Made by a program: the position numbers and the translations under genes
Shown: piece after piece, positions 21,854 through 36,983 of the stretch
Numbering within the stretch: the first letter of the stretch is position 1
Layout of the letters: every line of letters starts with the position of its first letter
Notes under the pieces: model-generated
The model's input: the letters and a program-made list of their open reading frames with translations, nothing else
Database searches by the model: none
What the model was told of the DNA's origin: nothing
Assembly: GCA_004124385.1 (NCBI GenBank)
Contig: SCKN01000005.1
Span: 62,001-126,000, forward strand
DNA length: 64,000 bases
Origin: Fidelibacterota bacterium
GTDB taxonomy: Bacteria; Fidelibacterota; Marinisomatia; Marinisomatales; TCS55
Reading direction: 5' to 3'

Positions 21854-22480
21854 ATGCTAGTCGAATATTTCGTAAACGGCGGACCTTTCATGTGGCCCAT
21901 TTTACTGTCACTTGTTTTTGGTCTTGCTTTTGCAGGTGAACGCTTTTATTCATTAATTATGTCATCAATAAACGCACAGAAGTTTTTTGAGGATGTAAAT
22001 AATACATTAGACAATGAAGGGGTAGATGCTACACTTGAGTTGTGTGAAAAAACAAACGGCCCAGTTGCTGAAATTTTCCACGCTGGACTTTCTCGAGTTC
22101 ATCGTGGAATTATAGAAGTAGAAAAAGCTATTCAAAATGCTGGTTCGATAGAAATGTCTTTTCTGGAAAAAAACATGATCTGGCTCAATGCAGTTATCAC
22201 GATTGCGCCTATGCTAGGATTTACAGGTACAGTGGCTGGTATGGTAAATGCTTTTGATGCAATTGCAGCTGCAGACGATATTTCACCTGCGGTTGTGGCG
22301 GGTGGAATTTCTCAGGCATTATTAACAACTGCCTTTGGTTTGATCGTGGCAATGATTATTCAAATTTTTCAGAATATCTTTGTATCCCGAATTGATAAAT
22401 TGGTTCTAGATATGGAAGAGAATTCCATAAAACTTGTTGACCATCTTTACGAGATGGAAGTAAAGAAGAAAAAGAAATAA
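21854..22480 (+). CDS. exbB: MotA/TolQ/ExbB proton channel family protein
   Basis: 208 residues with three membrane helices: about 10-30, 108-130 and 150-172. The family core is present: LNAVITIAPMLGFTGTVAGMVNAF and ISQALLTTAFGLIVAMI, including the channel-lining Thr/Pro pattern. With ExbD it uses the proton gradient to energise TonB in the inner membrane. It heads a four-gene operon with two ExbD genes and TonB. The C-terminus is a lysine run (KKKKK). Confidence 0.92.
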   Translation: MLVEYFVNGGPFMWPILLSLVFGLAFAGERFYSLIMSSINAQKFFEDVNNTLDNEGVDATLELCEKTNGPVAEIFHAGLSRVHRGIIEVEKAIQNAGSIEMSFLEKNMIWLNAVITIAPMLGFTGTVAGMVNAFDAIAAADDISPAVVAGGISQALLTTAFGLIVAMIIQIFQNIFVSRIDKLVLDMEENSIKLVDHLYEMEVKKKKK

Positions 22481-22492
22481 ACCAATAGTATA

Positions 22493-22888
22493 ATGAAAAA
22501 GAAACGCCGCTTTCGACGCGGAGAAATCCCCACAGCTTCTATGGCCGATATAGCCTTTTTGTTGCTCATATTTTTTCTAGTGACTACTACAATTGATATG
22601 GACAAAGGACTGGGTATTGTTCTACCCGCTGAGGGAGAAGAGATAGAGATTAAAAAAGATAATATTCTCAATTGTTTGATTAATTCAAGTGGAAATGTTT
22701 TGTTGGGTGGTGAACCAATTAAAACAAAGGATATTGGAAAAGAGGTTCGGCGGAAAATTGCTGAAAATCAAAAACTGATTATTTCTGTTAAGGCTCATGC
22801 AAAAACAAAATATAGTGATTATATCGCTGTTATAGATCAACTCAAAATGGCGAATGCAAAACGTATATCTATTGCGGAAGTTGAATAG
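22493..22888 (+). CDS. exbD: ExbD/TolR-family protein, first copy
   Basis: 131 residues: a basic cytosolic N-terminus (MKKKRRFRRGEIPTASMAD), a membrane helix with the conserved proton-carrying Asp (ADIAFLLLIFFLVTTTIDM), and a periplasmic domain. The periplasmic half matches the family pattern (ILNCLINSSGNVLLGGEPI). It works with ExbB. The last base of its stop codon is shared with the GTG of the second ExbD. Confidence 0.92.
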   Translation: MKKKRRFRRGEIPTASMADIAFLLLIFFLVTTTIDMDKGLGIVLPAEGEEIEIKKDNILNCLINSSGNVLLGGEPIKTKDIGKEVRRKIAENQKLIISVKAHAKTKYSDYIAVIDQLKMANAKRISIAEVE

Positions 22889-23298
22889 TGAAACTCAAAC
22901 GTAAAACAAAAATATCGAGCGAAATCCCAACAGCATCTATGCCGGATATCATTTTCATGTTGCTGATATTTTTTATGGTTACAACTGTCCTGCGTAAATA
23001 TTCCGGCCTTCCCGTGGAACTCCCCAGGGCAAAACGGATTGAAAAGCTTAAATCAAAACGACACACGTCTAATATCTGGGTTTCAAAAGAAGGATTAGTT
23101 TCAATTCAAGACAAATTACATAGCGTTGAAAATATTCGTCATGTGATGTATGATATTCGCGCTGCAGACCCATTGTTAACCGTTTCTTTAAAAGCGGATA
23201 AATCTGCAAAAATGGGCTTGATTTCGGAGATTCATAATGAATTGAGAAAAGCAGATGCGTTGAAATTAAATTATTCAACCAAAACAGCTGTTGAATAA
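22888..23298 (+). CDS. exbD: ExbD/TolR-family protein, second copy
   Basis: 136 residues starting with GTG at 22888, overlapping the first ExbD by one base. Same layout: KISSEIPTASMPDIIFMLLI with the conserved Asp, then a periplasmic domain. The two copies share the SEIPTASM/GEIPTASM segment but differ after the helix, so they are old paralogues. Tandem ExbD pairs are common in Bacteroidetes-type TonB systems and may form a heterodimer in the ExbB pore. Confidence 0.92.
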   Translation: MKLKRKTKISSEIPTASMPDIIFMLLIFFMVTTVLRKYSGLPVELPRAKRIEKLKSKRHTSNIWVSKEGLVSIQDKLHSVENIRHVMYDIRAADPLLTVSLKADKSAKMGLISEIHNELRKADALKLNYSTKTAVE

Positions 23299-23300
23299 AT

Positions 23301-23915
23301 ATGGTTAAATATTCCCCCGTATTAAAATTCAACTACCCTGTTATAGTGCGTATAGCAGGTTTTTCTGGTATTTTAATTATAACTTTTGGGTTTTTATTTA
23401 CCCCTCGAAACTTTGATGTTTTTATATTAGATGAAGCCAATCAAATTATTATTGAACAGATAGATATTCCGCAAACCCAGCAGTTAGATTTGCCGCCACC
23501 GCCAGCAAGACCCTCTGTGCCCATTGAATCAGAGGATGAAGATTTAGAAGATGTTACAATTGAAGAAACCGATTTGGAAAGTTTTGAAGCGTGGGATGCC
23601 CCTCCACCTCCACCAGAGGGACCTAGAGTTAAATTTATTCCTTATGATGATCCCCCGAGGCCGCTCACGCCTATTCGCCCAAAATATCCTGAAATTGCTC
23701 AAGAAGCTGGAATCGAGGGGACTGTTATTGTTCAGGTCTTTGTAGATAAAAAAGGACGAGTAAAAGAAACAATTATTTTAAAAGGTATCCCAAACACTGG
23801 GTTGGATGAAGCAGCTATAAAGGCAATCCGTAAAACCCGCTTTTTCCCGGCTAAGCAGCGTGAACGGGCTGTGGGTGTTTGGATATCTATTCCAGTGAAT
23901 TTCAGATTGAAATAA
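23301..23915 (+). CDS. tonB: Energy transducer TonB
   Basis: 204 residues. One N-terminal membrane helix (about 13-33), a periplasmic stretch rich in Pro and acidic residues (LDLPPPPARPSVP, DAPPPPPEGPRV), and a C-terminal TonB domain from about 120 (IRPKYPEIAQEAGIEGTVIV, then RKTRFFPAKQRERAVGVWIS). It passes energy from ExbB/ExbD to outer-membrane receptors. No TonB-dependent receptor lies in the window. Confidence 0.92.
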   Translation: MVKYSPVLKFNYPVIVRIAGFSGILIITFGFLFTPRNFDVFILDEANQIIIEQIDIPQTQQLDLPPPPARPSVPIESEDEDLEDVTIEETDLESFEAWDAPPPPPEGPRVKFIPYDDPPRPLTPIRPKYPEIAQEAGIEGTVIVQVFVDKKGRVKETIILKGIPNTGLDEAAIKAIRKTRFFPAKQRERAVGVWISIPVNFRLK

Positions 23916-29315: not shown

Positions 29316-30248
29316 TTATTCTACCATTTCACCGCCGCCAACCAAATCTGCTAGATTGAAAGCTCCATCTTTTTCCATCTGTTTTGCCGATGCAACAATT
29401 GTCTTTCTTGCTAGTTCTACTTCCCGCTTTGCAACAGCTCTTTCTACAGGATCAAACATAGCTTGTTTTTTCTTTGGTAGGTTTTCAATTACACGATTAG
29501 TTATGTCTTCTGACATCCCCTTCAAGGCCATTGCTATTGTATCAAGCTCCACAGAATTCATTAAATCCCGTATAATACTATCGGTTAATAAATCAAATAG
29601 AGCATCCCACGTTAGGTGATATTTTTTCACTTCAGCAGCAAGATCAGGGTTTTCTCTGGCAATATTTTCCAAAAATTGTGCTTCTTCTTCGGAACTTAAA
29701 CCACCCAAAATTTCCGCAACTTCTTTACCTCCACCCCGTGAAAATGCAACTGTTTTAGGTAAAAATTTTGATTTTTTATGGAGATCATTAGCCACGTTCA
29801 CCATAGCCTCTAATGGAATATCGTTTAAATTTCCCATCTCCATTATAATTTTTCCTTTTGATTCGGCAGATAAACTGTTTATCACTTTATTGCGACGTTC
29901 TCCAGGAATTTGAGCAAGTGCAATTGCTGCAACTGAATCCGATTCGGGTTTAACGAGAGCAATTAGCTGCTCATCTGTTAAATCGTCCAAAAATATAAAG
30001 GGTTTTTTTGGTTCATCAGATTCTTCATCTTGAAATTTTTCACTAACGAAACTGAAGTAAAATTCTTCCATTACATGTTTTTTCACAGCAAATGATACAT
30101 TATCAAGATCGCGCATTGCCGCTCGAACTTTACGTACCGATGTTTTTGATAAATCTTTTACCAACGTAAGGGCAAGCCCTTCTCCTAAAACAGAGAACAG
30201 TATTGCTGCCTTTTGAAGGCCTGAAAGTCTGTTAATATCTGTAATCAT
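29316..30248 (-). CDS. FliG-like rotor protein without the FliM-contact motif
   Basis: 310 residues alignable with FliG over all three domains. N domain (about 7-66): LSGLQKAAILFSVLGEG and KKHVMEEF, the part that binds FliF. Middle domain (about 84-163): where FliG has EHPQ this protein has ESDS (102-105). C domain (about 170-300): GGGKEVAEILGGLS, ENPDLAAEVKK, HLTW (211-214) in place of MFVF, the conserved ALKG (241-244) and a charged torque-helix region (KKK 259-261, DPVER 266-270). It should meet MotA at its C domain. No FliM or FliN is present. Last gene of its operon. Confidence 0.85.
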   Translation of the reverse strand: MITDINRLSGLQKAAILFSVLGEGLALTLVKDLSKTSVRKVRAAMRDLDNVSFAVKKHVMEEFYFSFVSEKFQDEESDEPKKPFIFLDDLTDEQLIALVKPESDSVAAIALAQIPGERRNKVINSLSAESKGKIIMEMGNLNDIPLEAMVNVANDLHKKSKFLPKTVAFSRGGGKEVAEILGGLSSEEEAQFLENIARENPDLAAEVKKYHLTWDALFDLLTDSIIRDLMNSVELDTIAMALKGMSEDITNRVIENLPKKKQAMFDPVERAVAKREVELARKTIVASAKQMEKDGAFNLADLVGGGEMVE

Positions 30249-30257
30249 GAGATTGCC

Positions 30258-31802
30258 TTATTTTTTCTTCTTTTTTTTCTTTTTATCGCCATCATCTTCT
30301 GTTTCAGCGGGAGTAGCCGCAACCACTGGCTCTGGTTCGGGTGGGGGTGTATCATCTTCCATCCATTCCTTTACTATTCGCGTCGCAGTGCTTGGCTGAC
30401 TAACACTCATAGATACAACTGCCTGACGCATATCAGAAATCTCGCTCTGCAAAACACTGGTGTCTTCCACGGGGGTGGATACTGCTTGTATGGCTGTCGC
30501 TTGTGGTGCTGGTTTCAACGATGTGTTTTTACTTTTTTTTTTCCGGGGTCGAGGAGGATACATCCACGGTGGGGGTAATTGTTGTTTCTGCCTATTACCC
30601 ATAATCATGATTGCCAACACAACAACAAGCACAATCACCAATGCCCCCAATAAAGATACGAATACAATCATCATTGTTGATGACCCACCTCCTCTGTTCA
30701 TACTACGATCTAAATCTGATTGCACAGCATCAAGCATGGCCAGTTTTTCAGCTATCTGAGAGTCTAATGCTGCTTTTTCACTCACTTTTTCACCCATGGC
30801 ATTTTTTGCTTGGGCGGCTTCATCTCCTGAAATATCATCAGAAGACATCATAGATTTTAAGCTGGTAATTTCATCGTTAAGCGCTTGTAGTTTTAATGAA
30901 TCGCGGCGCAAAATATCTCTTTTTTCTGCTTGATATGCTCTTTCTCGGGCAGCGGATTCTAGGTTTGTTAATTGTTGTTGAAAATACATTTTGTCTTGTT
31001 CTCGACGCGCTTCTTCCTGTGCTTTATAATTGTCTAACTCCTCTTTCCAGTTTACCAGACCATCACCCGATTGCCGTTGTTCCAATGATTCAAGTTTTTC
31101 AGCTATATTCTTCAATAAAATTTGTTCGGCTGTTTTCTCATCACGCCGTTCTTTAAACGTCGCTGTCATAATACTTAAAGCATCGTTTCGAGCACGATTA
31201 AATCGGGAAGCAACCATTACAACCTGCCGGATATTTTCTATGAGTTCCGGTGCTGCACCCTCTTGCAAAATAATGCTGATATCTAGTTTTTTAATATACG
31301 CAGTTGAAGGACGTCTACTGGTTACTGTGCGTGAAAGAACTTTGTTGTATCCATTATTAGACTGAACTGAAACAGGAGATTCCGCTGGAGATGTGATTTC
31401 ATTCATAGCAGGGGTAGTCATTTTACCCGCATCAGATTCAAACTCAAAACCGGGAATGGGTAAGCCCATAGAAATACCACTATTTTTGTTGTATGTAAAA
31501 TGATCAACTTTATTCGACGACTCGGTAGATATTGCTTCCAGTACTTGTCTGGGGCTTTGTTGACCATCGTCCACAATTGTAATTTGTTCCTCTGTCCCGG
31601 CACTGATTTCAATATCAGCATTTACATCAATGACATATTTCCGATCGTCAATTATTTTTGACAATGCGTTTGTTATGCGCTGACGAAGATCGTTTTCTAC
31701 CATCAATTTTTGTGCCAAGTAACCACTGCCTTGCCCAAAAAGCATACTTAAGCAGAAAATTGCTGTCAAAAATTGTTTATAAAATACTTTATAATTACTC
31801 AT
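30258..31802 (-). CDS. Reduced FliF-like ring protein (RBM3 domain, membrane helix, FliG-binding tail)
   Basis: 514 residues from ATG 31802, which has AAAGGAG 6 bases upstream. A signal or membrane segment (5-25) is followed by the FliF_C pattern (31-67: LRQRITNALSKIIDDRKYVI), then KLDISIILQ (172-180) and VASRFNRARNDALSIMTATF, matching the A-G-x-x-x-x-R-G-D-x-(I/L)-x-V end of that domain. The first two FliF ring domains are absent. A coiled coil (about 220-370), a membrane helix (about 373-402) and a cytosolic tail follow. The tail has QPSTATRIVKEWM (about 469-481), like the P-x-V-A-x-x-I-R-x-W-M that anchors FliG, and ends in eight Lys. Confidence 0.82.
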   Translation of the reverse strand: MSNYKVFYKQFLTAIFCLSMLFGQGSGYLAQKLMVENDLRQRITNALSKIIDDRKYVIDVNADIEISAGTEEQITIVDDGQQSPRQVLEAISTESSNKVDHFTYNKNSGISMGLPIPGFEFESDAGKMTTPAMNEITSPAESPVSVQSNNGYNKVLSRTVTSRRPSTAYIKKLDISIILQEGAAPELIENIRQVVMVASRFNRARNDALSIMTATFKERRDEKTAEQILLKNIAEKLESLEQRQSGDGLVNWKEELDNYKAQEEARREQDKMYFQQQLTNLESAARERAYQAEKRDILRRDSLKLQALNDEITSLKSMMSSDDISGDEAAQAKNAMGEKVSEKAALDSQIAEKLAMLDAVQSDLDRSMNRGGGSSTMMIVFVSLLGALVIVLVVVLAIMIMGNRQKQQLPPPWMYPPRPRKKKSKNTSLKPAPQATAIQAVSTPVEDTSVLQSEISDMRQAVVSMSVSQPSTATRIVKEWMEDDTPPPEPEPVVAATPAETEDDGDKKKKKKKK

Positions 31803-31837: not shown

Positions 31838-32686
31838 TTAATTAGTCGTTTTACCATCGTTCCCTACATAACTTGCTGAGTGGTGCGCTGGTTTCAAAAA
31901 TGTTATTTCTATTCTCCTGTTTCTGCCTTTTTTCTCCGGTGTATCATTGAATTTTAAGACAGTTTCCCTATCAAGAGATTTAAGCGCTAAACCGGCATCG
32001 CCCCTGTCACGTGGAACCCAATCAGCATAACCTGCAGCAACTAGGCGAGTAGGGTCAACCCCTTGAGTAATAATATTTCTCACCACTGCTGCGCCTCGCG
32101 ACGTTGACAGCTCCCAGTTCGATGGAAATTGTTTGTGAAAAACTTTTGGCAATTGATCGCTATCAGTGTGGCCTGCTACTTCAATTTGAAAGATCGAATT
32201 GTTTATTTCGCGAACAATATTATTTTTCAACAATTTTATTAAACCTGGGCTTAATTCAGAACTTCCAGATGCAAAACTGAAATCGCCGCTAATTTCCAAA
32301 GTTACTCCTTTAGGGCTTGTGGTTATCTCTACTGGAGGATCCCCTTTAGTGTCTTTCATTTCTGCTTTTATTTCTTTTACCATTTCTTTTAATGATGCTT
32401 TTACTTCAACCAACTTTGTTGCTTTTTTATCAAACCTACCTTCAAGTTCTGCTCTGCCTTCTATTTTAATTTTACTTCCTAATGATTTTCCTGCAGAGTT
32501 TGCCATCTCCATAATTTTTACTGGATCCATTGTAGACAATGCAGCTAACAAAACAAAAAACGCAAAGAGAAGTGTCATCATATCAGCAAACGTTCCAAAC
32601 CAACCAGGTAACCCTTCATCAACTTGGGATTTCCCCTTTTTAATTCCAGCTTTAAATGCTTTTTTTTCTCCTGACGTTTTTGCCAT
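31838..32686 (-). CDS. motB: MotB-type stator subunit with OmpA-like peptidoglycan-binding domain
   Basis: 282 residues. A short basic cytosolic N-terminus, then one membrane helix with the proton- or sodium-carrying Asp35 in GTFADMMTLLFAFFVLLAAL. A periplasmic linker (about 60-130) leads to an OmpA-like domain with EVAGHTDSD, NWELSTSRGAAVVRNII and GRNRRIEI. This is the MotB architecture, distinct from ExbD/TolR and from GldM/PorM. It should anchor MotA to the cell wall. Four bases separate it from motA. Confidence 0.92.
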   Translation of the reverse strand: MAKTSGEKKAFKAGIKKGKSQVDEGLPGWFGTFADMMTLLFAFFVLLAALSTMDPVKIMEMANSAGKSLGSKIKIEGRAELEGRFDKKATKLVEVKASLKEMVKEIKAEMKDTKGDPPVEITTSPKGVTLEISGDFSFASGSSELSPGLIKLLKNNIVREINNSIFQIEVAGHTDSDQLPKVFHKQFPSNWELSTSRGAAVVRNIITQGVDPTRLVAAGYADWVPRDRGDAGLALKSLDRETVLKFNDTPEKKGRNRRIEITFLKPAHHSASYVGNDGKTTN

Positions 32687-32690
32687 TTAA

Positions 32691-33473
32691 TTATTCTTCT
32701 TTTTTCCATTCCTTCGGCGGTATAAAAGAATTCAATTTTTCCCTAACGATCAAAGGATGTTTCTTTTGATGAATAAGACGAGCTGCTTCAACCAGCATCG
32801 CCTGCAATGTACTCGTGAAACTCATTCGTGTGTTTAATTTTTCACTCATTGGCAGAAAAAATAGGTTCGCGAATACAGTACCATAAAATGTTGTAATCAA
32901 CGCAGCCGACATACCGGGGCCCAATGCATCCGCGCCACCCTCTCCACCAAAACCTGACAACATAATAACCAGCCCAATCAACGTTCCGATCATACCCCAG
33001 GCGGGAGCCATGGTCCCCATAGATTTAAACAATCCTGCCTGTGTTTTTTCACGTATTTCCCGATATTCAATTCGTGTTTCTAATATTTCAGTTAATTCAT
33101 CTAAGCTATAACCATCCACTACCATTTGTACACCATCCCTGAAAAATGGATTTTTTATACTTTCAACTGATTTTTCAAGTTCAACTACGCCTTTACGACC
33201 TACCTCTGCTGTTTCTATAGCATCATCAACTACTGCACCCAGCTTAACTTCCCCGCCTTTAAAGACAGCGCCTATAGCGGAACCCAGCTTGAGAACATCT
33301 GACAAAGGAAAAGCAACCGATACCGATGCTATCATTCCTCCAAAAACAATTGCAAAGCTTGATGGTGAAATAAATCCGCCCATTCCTGCATTAGCAGCTG
33401 AAGCGGCTAAAAATATTCCGCCAAAAATTGATACCAAGCCAAGAATAATTCCTACTAATGTTGCAATATCCAT
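32691..33473 (-). CDS. motA: MotA-type stator subunit
   Basis: 260 residues from ATG 33473 (AGGGAG upstream; a TTG at 33494 is less likely). Four membrane helices with the large cytosolic loop of MotA between helices 2 and 3. Both family prolines are there: P157 in MAPAWGMIGTLIGLVIM and P208 in FANLFFLPMSEKL. With MotB it forms an ion-driven stator that pushes on FliG. It starts seven bases after the stop of the barrel-TPR gene. Confidence 0.93.
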   Translation of the reverse strand: MDIATLVGIILGLVSIFGGIFLAASAANAGMGGFISPSSFAIVFGGMIASVSVAFPLSDVLKLGSAIGAVFKGGEVKLGAVVDDAIETAEVGRKGVVELEKSVESIKNPFFRDGVQMVVDGYSLDELTEILETRIEYREIREKTQAGLFKSMGTMAPAWGMIGTLIGLVIMLSGFGGEGGADALGPGMSAALITTFYGTVFANLFFLPMSEKLNTRMSFTSTLQAMLVEAARLIHQKKHPLIVREKLNSFIPPKEWKKEE

Positions 33474-33480
33474 AGTCTCC

Positions 33481-34905
33481 CTACTCCTCCACAATGCTCG
33501 TGGAATTTAAACGGTTTTCGTGCAAAGCCTTTAAAATATTACGCACATCATCATATTCGGGATCCAGACGCAAGGCCAAATTCCAGTTAATCGTTGCCCG
33601 TTGCGTATCCCCAAGTTTATAATATATTGAGCCTCGTCGAGCATAAGCTAAGGCCATATTTGGATTCAAATCTAAAGCTGATTCCACTTCTTGCAATGCG
33701 GCTCGGTAGTCTCCGGCATAAAAATAGCGTAATGATCGAGATAAGTGACGCATGGCTTCATTCATATTTTTTTCGTCAACATTTCGACTCAATTTCATTG
33801 ATAATAATGAATCTTCTAAAAATTGAGACTGCTGCTCTATAGCCGCTAATTGGACCATTAAATTACGCATTTCATTTCTTAACATGTTCATAGAGTCCCG
33901 AACTGTATGAACAGCAAAATCAGCCATAGCCAAAGTGGAGTCCATAGAGGATGATAATGTTTCATATTGACCTGTCGCAGGTAGTTTAAGCTGTCCCCTG
34001 GGCAAAGGTGAGGGCACCCCTGAACGACCAGAACCTTTTTTAAATCCGCGTGGTACTGCCATATCAAATCCCAAAGTAATACCGGGATGACCTTCCCAAT
34101 ATCTGGATTTCCAGTCCGGCAGTTTTTCTATGTGGGTGAACCCTAGGTTCAAGCGATAATCCGAGGTAAGGGGGATGCGGAGTCCCACATTGATGCCTGT
34201 CCCGTCGAATTCACCCACAATATCTATTCCACCCCATTTTTTCAAATAGGGTGTATTCATAATTACGCCCACAAATACACCAGATTTAGTGCCTCCAGAC
34301 GTTGTTACTTCTGTAGTAGAAGATGATGTTTCTTCAGACGTACTTAAAGCCTTTATTGTATCTGCAGGTGCAAATCCACCCGACCCAAAACCCATAAAAG
34401 TGCTTAAATGATATTTACCCAAATCTTTTTCACTGCTTACCACAACAAAAAACGATAATTGTTCTGGGTCTAGACTTAAACCGCTTCCTCCGCTTGTTTC
34501 TGCATTTTGAAACACAATATCCTGCAAACCCAATGAAAGCGAAACATTATTGTATGTATAGACGCGCTGCTGCAAATGAAATCCAAATTCTACGGGCGGC
34601 GTGTATCCCGTTTTTCCCAGAAGAGCGGGGGCAGTGCTGTCTGCTGTCTGTACAGATGAAAAACCCAATGTGAAATTCTTTCCTAGCTCCATATCAAAAT
34701 AGATACCTTTAGCCGAGTTAAAAGGGTCAAATCTGTGAAGCTCTATACCAAAACCTGTACGGAATAAATATGGAGCTTGGGTTGTGCTGGATGTTGGAAT
34801 TTTCATCATAAACCCGGGACGAGTGTATGCAACACGAGACGCACCTGAGGATACTGACATTAACACCAAAAACGGTAATAAATAAACATATGATCGTCTT
34901 TTCAC
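33481..34905 (-). CDS. Outer-membrane beta-barrel protein fused to a coiled coil and TPR domain
   Basis: 474 residues. Signal peptide, then about 280 residues of alternating beta strands typical of an outer-membrane barrel (GFGIELHRFDPF, IYFDMELGKNFTLGFSS, YHLSTFMGFGSGGF, GINVGLRIPLTSDYRLNLGF). A linker leads to a coiled coil (about 325-375) and two or three TPR units near the C-terminus (RYFYAGDYRAALQEVESAL, YARRGSIYYKLGDTQRATI). The TPR part should sit in the periplasm. It could link the MotAB/FliF/FliG complex to the outer membrane; that link is an inference from operon position. Confidence 0.7.
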   Translation of the reverse strand: MKRRSYVYLLPFLVLMSVSSGASRVAYTRPGFMMKIPTSSTTQAPYLFRTGFGIELHRFDPFNSAKGIYFDMELGKNFTLGFSSVQTADSTAPALLGKTGYTPPVEFGFHLQQRVYTYNNVSLSLGLQDIVFQNAETSGGSGLSLDPEQLSFFVVVSSEKDLGKYHLSTFMGFGSGGFAPADTIKALSTSEETSSSTTEVTTSGGTKSGVFVGVIMNTPYLKKWGGIDIVGEFDGTGINVGLRIPLTSDYRLNLGFTHIEKLPDWKSRYWEGHPGITLGFDMAVPRGFKKGSGRSGVPSPLPRGQLKLPATGQYETLSSSMDSTLAMADFAVHTVRDSMNMLRNEMRNLMVQLAAIEQQSQFLEDSLLSMKLSRNVDEKNMNEAMRHLSRSLRYFYAGDYRAALQEVESALDLNPNMALAYARRGSIYYKLGDTQRATINWNLALRLDPEYDDVRNILKALHENRLNSTSIVEE

Positions 34906-35798
34906 TGCAACACCAGCTCCCCTCGCTTTATTTCTAATGTTGCTAATCGTAAGTATTCACTTTCAGGATGACCCACCACTACTTTTTTAAAAGAGTTCAA
35001 AGCTAAACCCAAATCGCCTTGATCTTTATAGAGTAATCCTTTTTTAACTAATGCATCATCAACCATATCTGATTTTTTATATGATAATAATTCATTTAAA
35101 ACTGTTAAAGCGCGTTCATAATCATGCATTTGTAAATATGCATCCGCTTTCCAATATAGAACATTTTCAATTTTATCAAGATCCGCTGATTGTAAGTTAA
35201 GGTCATCAAAACAATGCAGTGCAGTAGCAAGGTTTCCGCATTGGTATGCAAACATACCCGCCATATATAAATCCATGTCAAATCGTTTTGGTTGTTCCGG
35301 CAAAACCAGTACAATACTTTTTACTATTGGCAGTTCTTTAATGTCAATATTTTCCAGTATCTGTGGATCAATAAGCGCCATGTTGATTTCTGGAAGATCG
35401 GGTTTCTCTAATGCTGGTATAGAGAGATCTGTAAGTATTTGCTGTAGTTTAATATTTTCTGATACTAACACCATTACTTCATTGTGGAAAAATGTTTCCA
35501 AGTTCATCAATCGAGTATTAATTCTATCAATAGCAGTTAAAAGCTCCTGGTTTGCTATTGTATTCAATGTTCCGCTTTTAACCTGCTTAACCCTAATATT
35601 AACTTCTTTTGAAGGGCTTTCTATGTGGCGATTATAAACAACAACCCCACTAGACGGTTCAATAACAACACCAAGATCTAAAAGGTAAATCTCTGATAAA
35701 GATGATGATGGGTGCTGTTGGCCACTAATTGGAATCGTTAGGGAAAAAGTTATTCCCAGTCCGAATAAAACACGGCGGTAAAGAGATACCGCTGTCAT
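34902..35798 (-). CDS. Periplasmic TPR protein of the motor operon
   Basis: 298 residues from ATG 35798, whose A is the last base of the upstream stop codon (TAATG). A signal peptide (to about ISGQ) is followed by an unfamiliar region, a possible coiled coil (about 90-125), and a C-terminal TPR block (MAGMFAYQCGNLATALHCF, YLQMHDYERALTVLNELL, YKDQGDLGLALNSFKKVV). It overlaps the next gene by 4 bases. Likely a periplasmic scaffold of the same complex. Confidence 0.7.
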   Translation of the reverse strand: MTAVSLYRRVLFGLGITFSLTIPISGQQHPSSSLSEIYLLDLGVVIEPSSGVVVYNRHIESPSKEVNIRVKQVKSGTLNTIANQELLTAIDRINTRLMNLETFFHNEVMVLVSENIKLQQILTDLSIPALEKPDLPEINMALIDPQILENIDIKELPIVKSIVLVLPEQPKRFDMDLYMAGMFAYQCGNLATALHCFDDLNLQSADLDKIENVLYWKADAYLQMHDYERALTVLNELLSYKKSDMVDDALVKKGLLYKDQGDLGLALNSFKKVVVGHPESEYLRLATLEIKRGELVLQ

Positions 35799-36930
35799 TA
35801 TTCGTATTCCTCCCAATCAATGACATAAGAGTATCCGATAAAGGATCCAAAATCATTGGGCAAGAATAATTCAAACGCTCCAAACGCCCCCGGGAGTAAA
35901 GTGGCATCTGTGGTGATGCCGGAGTCGAAGGTGTGGTATGTTCCGCGTAAAAACGTAGTGAGTGTCTTGGTCTCACCGCTCCAGTTTTTACGAAATACAA
36001 AATCAACTTTCACAAAATCTGCCCGGCGGCCGCCAATGTTTTTAATCTCTCCTGTAAAGATAATTGCACCCTGATTATCCTTGCGCTCACTGATATTGCC
36101 AACCAGAACACAATTCGCAGAATATCTTTTTCCAGCTGAACGACTAAATGGATCAGCTGATGTATATTTGGGTTGTGCCAGTTTGGGCATGGGCGGTGGG
36201 GAGTAACTATCGCGAATCTGTTCTGGTACATATTCTTGTGTTTCCTCTGTTACCACATTATCAATAACCCTGACTATATTTTTACGTTCAATAATCAGAT
36301 AACCCAATAAAGTTTCGATTTTTAGTGTTTCTTCATCTTGATAAATAATCTTACCAAATACTGTGCTACCGTTTTGAAGTATTATTTCTTTTGAATAAAT
36401 AGCCAGTGGGTTTATCCACATTTTGCTTAAAGCCTTCAAGTCTTCCAGTTCGGAATTAAGATACTTGATTTCTGCAGATAGCTTTTTTAGTTCAAAACTT
36501 AATTCTGTTGTTACATAATCCGCATCGGTACCAGGAATATCTCCACCCCCTTTTAATACGACTTCTTTTTTGACTTCTGCTTTTACAGATAATACTAATT
36601 CTAAATCTTCTAAATCATCATTTGAAACAGTAATGGGGATACTGGCTTTCCCTTTTTTACCAGCATCTGCTTTTAAAACATAGTCACCAGGAAGGACTTT
36701 TTTAAATTTGAACGTAACCACCGCCCATACCCATCGCTTTTGGATGATTCCGTGCGTTGGGATTCAACGCCATCTGATGTAAGTAATAAAACGGTTGTTC
36801 TGCCAACTTTTTCACCATCTGCATCAAATACAGTACCTTTAACTTTGTAACCTTTTGCATTGAGGGTGGAGCTATAAGCAAAAATACTAAGTACAATAAG
36901 TGTGTATTTAAACAGCGATTTTATGTTCAT
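35798..36930 (-). CDS. Carboxypeptidase-regulatory-like/coiled-coil/Sm-like protein with an apparent frameshift
   Basis: Two frames join into one protein of about 377 residues. Frame 1 from ATG 36930 (GAGGT upstream) gives a signal peptide and KGYKVKGTVFDADGEKVGR, the start of a CarboxypepD_reg domain, up to SDGYGR. The rest of that domain, VTFKFKKVLPGDYVLKAD, is in another frame from about 36721. One extra base in the G-rich stretch at 36713-36725 would restore it. After this come a coiled coil (ELSFELKKLSAEIKYLNSEL) and a small beta-barrel-like unit (LQNGSTVFGKIIYQDEETLK). First gene of the motor operon. It may be a real mutation or a sequence error. Confidence 0.65.
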
Positions 36931-36983
36931 AAAGTTACCTCGGGTATGCAAGAATCAAGACGAACTACTGCCTTGGATAGATG

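Follow-up and report, generated by a model that had tools for sequence, protein, structure and literature searches.

In a 64,000-nucleotide stretch of the genome of a Fidelibacterota bacterium (the window, hereafter), a FliF-like protein reduced to the RBM3 domain is encoded in an operon together with a flagellar-type stator, a FliG and an outer-membrane-like partner. This operon probably specifies a dedicated, non-flagellar rotary motor that has the FliF-like protein as its ring subunit and is coupled to the outer membrane. The supporting evidence comes from the domain make-up of the FliF-like protein, from the conservation of the operon across 245 genomes of Candidatus Marinimicrobia (SAR406, Fidelibacterota), and from the separation of the operon from the flagellum.

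The operon and its encoded proteins

The operon reads, 5' to 3', carboxypeptidase-regulatory-like gene, TPR, outer-membrane-like TPR, MotA, MotB, FliF-like and FliG, with the following features:

35798..36951, minus strand: first gene, with a carboxypeptidase-regulatory-like domain and a conserved region; heads the block in relatives
34902..35816, minus strand: probable periplasmic TPR protein with YbgF/CpoB-like repeats, likely start 35798 (Pfam TPR; NCBIfam tol_pal_ybgF 6.1e-9, under cut-off)
33481..34905, minus strand: outer-membrane-like protein with a putative N-terminal beta-barrel-like region, a coiled coil and C-terminal TPRs (Pfam TPR)
32691..33494, minus strand: MotA-like stator subunit of the flagellar MotP/PomA type, likely start 33473 (NCBIfam MotP 1.7e-53, PomA 2.8e-45)
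31838..32686, minus strand: MotB-like stator subunit with plug and OmpA-like peptidoglycan domain (Pfam MotB_plug 3.4e-14, OmpA 6.7e-10)
30258..31802, minus strand: FliF-like protein, RBM3 only, 514 aa (Pfam PF08345 7.4e-9; NCBIfam fliF 3.7e-5; AlphaFold, Foldseek)
29316..30248, minus strand: FliG-like rotor protein of 310 aa, built of N, M and C domains (Pfam FliG_C 1.4e-19, FliG_N 3.9e-18, FliG_M 1.8e-10)

In the window the first gene is split over two frames (36673-36951 and 35798-36721) by small insertions or deletions near 36720, and in close relatives it is a single open reading frame of about 384-396 aa; the split could be an assembly error. The outer-membrane-like TPR protein had no relative in the PDB or Pfam outside its TPRs; its beta-barrel-like region was called by eye, and its beta-strand amphipathicity showed little contrast (0.98 vs 0.85). 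On the opposite strand of the window (21854-23915, plus), genes for a TolQ/ExbB-like protein, two TolR/ExbD-like proteins and a TonB-family protein lie in a row.

The stator is of the flagellar type, with a match of the operon MotA to TolQ reaching only 0.009 (NCBIfam), and its ion-channel residues are retained. MotA residues E98, P173 and P222 are kept in 54 of 54 sequences, and the MotB channel aspartate (E. coli position 32) is present in all 44 aligned sequences. The MotA R90 residue itself is not kept; an R-K pair lies beside that site in the MotA of the window.

The three FliG domains all scored above the Pfam cut-offs, and the profile of the operon FliG family matched the PDB FliG structure 1lkv (E=3.6e-40). 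Against the NCBIfam model TIGR00207 the operon FliG scored 94.5 bits, which is below the equivalog cut-off of 226.7 bits. Of the torque-face charges, the basic positions are kept: K264 is present in 47 of 47 operon FliGs, and at the R281 position 42 of them have K and 5 have R. The acidic pair, E. coli D288/D289, is altered, being mostly replaced (P plus a gap in 40/47) in a shortened region that still has an acidic residue nearby. The EHPQ motif, through which FliG binds FliM, does not occur in any of the 26 operon FliGs of the alignment searched (A5); among flagellar FliGs of the same phylum it was present in 24 of 25, the 25th reading ENPQ. The FliM-binding site is lost from the operon FliG. 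In a FastTree phylogeny of the 47 operon FliGs, 25 flagellar FliGs, the E. coli protein and a Thermotoga fragment, in which the root is not fixed, a long branch (1.33, support 0.92) separates the operon FliGs from all the others.

An RBM3-only FliF-like protein

The FliF-like reading frame is intact, with its ATG at 31802 and the last base of its stop codon at 30258, and its product can be divided as follows:

31731..31802, minus strand: hydrophobic N-terminus, residues 1-24, probably a signal peptide (predicted helix 4-23; conserved G-Q end)
31155..31727, minus strand: RBM3 domain, residues 26-216 (Pfam, PDB profile match, AlphaFold, Foldseek)
31332-31580, minus strand: collar insertion within RBM3, residues 75-157, low confidence (AlphaFold)
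30672..31139, minus strand: long helical segment between RBM3 and the membrane, residues 222-377 (AlphaFold helices, spacer lengths)
30597..30671, minus strand: membrane helix, residues about 378-402 (hydropathy peak 378-396)
30354..30461, minus strand: putative FliG-binding-type tail, residues 448-483 (profile-profile score; predicted helices 448-468 and 470-483)

An earlier note on this DNA had proposed that the protein is a minimal FliF, lacking RBM1 and RBM2 but keeping RBM3, the second membrane helix and a FliG-binding tail. The analysis supports RBM3 as the sole ring-building motif, the absence of RBM1-RBM2 and a tail of the FliG-binding type. The YscJ_FliF_C model, which spans RBM3 and the collar, matched residues 47-216 above the Pfam cut-off, whereas PF01514 (YscJ_FliF, RBM1-RBM2) was found neither in the protein nor in the whole genome; control searches with the same model were positive in E. 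coli, B. subtilis, Caulobacter and Thermotoga. The protein falls far short of the equivalog cut-off of the NCBIfam FliF model TIGR00206 (22.9 bits vs 129.75 bits). An NCBIfam match to the gliding protein GltJ (8.5e-4), which covers the membrane and proline-rich region, was not accepted as homology. Hydropathy indicated a single strong membrane helix at about 378-396, downstream of RBM3, with the N-terminal helix 4-23 lying under the membrane-helix threshold used and resembling a signal peptide.

The fold was compared with that of RBM3 by AlphaFold (input alignment of 34 relatives) and Foldseek. The predicted order of elements was alpha-beta-(collar)-beta-alpha-beta, running from helix 26-50 and strand 56-74 through a disordered collar to strand 158-180, helix 185-198 and strand 208-214. 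The pLDDT was 91-95 in the ordered parts, and the whole-chain pTM was only 0.31. All 16 Foldseek matches against the PDB at E<0.001 were FliF rings (best 1.5e-6), the next match having E=0.087, and an unrelated fold was not seen. The profile of the 34 relatives additionally matched the M-ring FliF structure 8z5s across RBM3 (E=5.6e-5); a second, weak match of 3.1 bits covered the final 25 residues of that chain. When the FliF-like family was compared with flagellar FliFs profile to profile, RBM3 alone aligned (E=1.3e-5, probability 81%).

Beyond RBM3, helices were predicted at residues 222-246, 249-320 and 326-402, followed by the two tail helices. The note had suggested that an inserted coiled coil substitutes for RBM1-RBM2; this does not hold, as the helical segment, of about 160 residues, instead separates RBM3 from the membrane helix. 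In the model this segment could form either a hairpin or an extended shaft. In family f13 the FliF-like protein is longer (594 aa at locus L054) and matches in two pieces, which suggests an extra insertion in the helical segment.

The tail appears to be of the FliG-binding type. Aligned separately, the tails of 26 FliF-like sequences and of 13 canonical FliFs (12 from the same phylum plus E. coli) gave a profile-profile score of 33.05, compared with a mean of 9.05 and a maximum of 23.49 for column-shuffled controls (n=200). The conserved stretch QPSTATRIVKEWM corresponds to residues 469-481 of the FliF-like protein. The FliF-like and FliG genes share a reading frame across the FliF stop, and a read-through chain of FliF tail and FliG was modelled purely as a device. 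Its FliG domains matched known FliG, and the pLDDT of the tail in ten-residue blocks rose modestly from 77, 63 and 72 alone to 78, 78 and 84 with FliG. The protein closes with a lysine run (30258-30290, minus strand) that many relatives within the order share but distant ones have lost.

Compared with flagellar FliF (TIGR00206; Salmonella, Vibrio, E. coli), the FliF-like protein shares RBM3 with its collar, the membrane helix that follows, a probable FliG-binding tail and an adjoining fliG. It differs in having no RBM1-RBM2, no strong first membrane helix detected and no export apparatus in the genome. Its spacer between RBM3 and the membrane helix is 130-207 residues long in the phylum relatives measured, where the E. 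coli FliF sequence, judged by eye, has about 15; in flagellated relatives it is also separate from the canonical FliF. SpoIIIAG, which is part of the sporulation channel, is not known to have a FliG-binding tail or a stator. As described in PMC4768692, SpoIIIAG is a member of the sporulation complex with a split RBM3-like ring-building domain, and this type of domain is its likeness to the FliF-like protein. The same paper describes a chlamydial FliF that is fused to FliG and is without the RBM3-like domain (PMC4768692); it resembles the FliF-like protein in being reduced and tied to FliG, but RBM3 is what the FliF-like protein keeps, and its FliG is a separate gene.

Distribution, selection and separation from the flagellum

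The FliF-like protein was detected in 162 of the 245 genomes (71/94 good genomes) and the outer-membrane-like TPR protein in 164, the two occurring together in 159 and discordantly in 3 + 5. The block was collinear in every one of the 20 regions compared from across the phylum, some of which were ended by contig edges; in a few of them one gene was undetected or the TPR gene doubled. Its order is also kept in a further set of relatives, as far as the contigs reach; the relatives found are Marinimicrobia MAGs. The FliF-like protein is absent from reduced-genome lineages, including family f9. In family f16 it has diverged strongly (E about 1e-5 to 1e-19), with the TPR protein still clear (about 1e-30 to 1e-93).

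The operon is under strong purifying selection. With dN/dS estimated by NG86 between the window and locus L003, and approximate because dS is near saturation, the values were 0.039 for FliF-like, 0.046 for MotA, 0.059 for the outer-membrane-like TPR protein and 0.065 for FliG, with 0.14 for the periplasmic TPR protein and 0.24 for MotB; GshA gave 0.18.

Neither FlhA nor the FliM/FliN C-domain (PF01052) was found in the genome of the window (2.09 Mb, 96.8% complete). Of the 245 genomes of the phylum, 42 had FlhA above its cut-off; the FliF-like protein occurs alongside FlhA in 33 genomes and without it in 129. A search for the canonical FliF N-domain covered 38 genomes, 33 FlhA-positive and five FlhA-negative, and was positive in 29 of the 38 but in none of the FlhA-negative five. 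In most of the 33 FlhA-positive genomes FliG also matched at two separate sites, strongly at one and weakly at the other. Since a canonical FliF and a second FliG are present elsewhere in most of the FlhA-positive carriers examined, the operon is a separate system rather than a relic.

That it is a degenerate remnant of a lost flagellum would fit the absence of any flagellar export gene from the genome and the loss of two domains from the FliF-like protein, yet this reading is highly improbable and was rejected, being contradicted by the strong purifying selection, the phylum-wide gene order, the dedicated partner genes and the coexisting canonical FliF and FliG. It is scarcely credible that the operon is instead the motor of an ordinary flagellum with its remaining genes located elsewhere or missed. 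The stator, FliG and FliF are of flagellar type, as such a motor would have; however, FlhA, an RBM1-RBM2 FliF and FliM/FliN are all absent from a genome that is about 97% complete, and flagellated members of the phylum have a separate canonical FliF. A hidden flagellum was rejected on these grounds. Found across most of this marine phylum whether or not the genome has a flagellum, the operon suggests a rotary machine whose load, moved or pulled on, is something non-flagellar.

A putative trans-envelope motor and its output

Because no export apparatus is found in the genome, a ring that could carry torque without secreting is the natural reading of the FliF-like protein, which may form a ring and transmit torque. 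The flagellar MS ring has about 34 subunits. RBM3 alone can form rings in the case of Salmonella FliF (PMC8786727), and the ring of the proposed motor would be built from FliF-like subunits through this domain. MotA and MotB would act as the ion-driven stator, anchored to peptidoglycan, and FliG, attached to the FliF-like tail, would be driven round by MotA. Without a FliM-FliN switch the motor would probably turn in one direction and be free of chemotactic control, and it would have no export gate. Torque may pass from the FliG ring through the helical segment of the FliF-like protein to the periplasmic RBM3 ring, and from there to the outer-membrane-like TPR protein and periplasmic partners, with mechanical work at the outer membrane as the output. 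Taken together, a stator, a rotor, a ring and an outer-membrane-like protein that almost always goes with them speak for a rotary motor that spans the envelope. As a guess, the driven load might be a surface adhesin or an envelope structure moved in a gliding-like manner.

GldL-GldM and Tol-Pal are ion-driven inner-membrane motors that work on the outer membrane, and their tasks were weighed as alternatives. The operon differs from both in using FliG and FliF-type rotor parts, and GldM was not found in the genome of the window. A role as the motor that type IX secretion seems to lack in this phylum, in place of GldL-GldM, was considered because the translocon component SprA is present in 233/245 Marinimicrobia genomes vs GldM (PF12081) in 2/245, the genome of the window not being among the latter; type IX secretion in the phylum either lacks the known motor or has a divergent one. 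The sole other MotA/ExbB-type protein of the genome sits in a TolQ/R-TonB-like cluster, which also favours this role. It is nevertheless unlikely, as the distribution gave it no support: 76 SprA-positive genomes, including those of reduced-genome family f9, are without the FliF-like protein. The association of SprA with the FliF-like protein was not significant (157 genomes with both, 5 with FliF-like alone, 76 with SprA alone, 7 with neither; Fisher p=0.11, uncorrected for relatedness and, the genomes being related, descriptive only). Moreover, a divergent GldM or GldL could evade a Pfam model, the search having covered GldM, and in the genome of the window the operon lies on contig C7 and SprA on contig C4.

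Quite unlikely, too, is a Tol-Pal-like task in envelope maintenance, in which a flagellar-type stator would pull the outer membrane to the peptidoglycan. The operon does encode a YbgF/CpoB-like TPR protein and an OmpA-type MotB, but Tol-Pal needs neither a FliG nor a FliF ring, a separate TolQ/R-like cluster is already present in the genome, and reduced-genome lineages, in which a function of this kind should have persisted, are without the operon. Its absence there is easier to reconcile with a surface activity that cells can dispense with than with core upkeep of the envelope.

To our knowledge, Fidelibacter multiformis is the only cultured member of the phylum. The isolate is described as non-motile (PMC11652737), and genome G003, which is probably its genome, carries the operon; this speaks against plain motility as the role under those conditions and would also suit the Tol-Pal-like task.

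In a 2025 survey, 11% of non-motile species were found to have FliG, FliM or FliN without filament proteins, and an alternative function was raised (PMC12199754); a text search of that survey returned no mention of FliF or Marinimicrobia. A description of the operon was not found in the open-access literature searched. Its parts belong to known families; their combination, a FliF with RBM3 only and a long spacer, and a partner of the outer-membrane-like kind were likewise not met with in that literature. Tentatively, the operon may represent a new class of trans-envelope rotary machine, independent of the flagellum and phylum-wide (whether ancestral or spread), in which the ring protein would serve as the output shaft to an outer-membrane complex.

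The operon is a candidate answer to the question of what a partial flagellar motor can serve for. Strong selection keeps a stator, a FliG and an RBM3-only FliF in one set although export, switch and filament are missing, and this motor core persists beside complete flagella in relatives. It therefore offers a minimal set for asking whether a flagellar-type rotor can deliver torque to the outer membrane.
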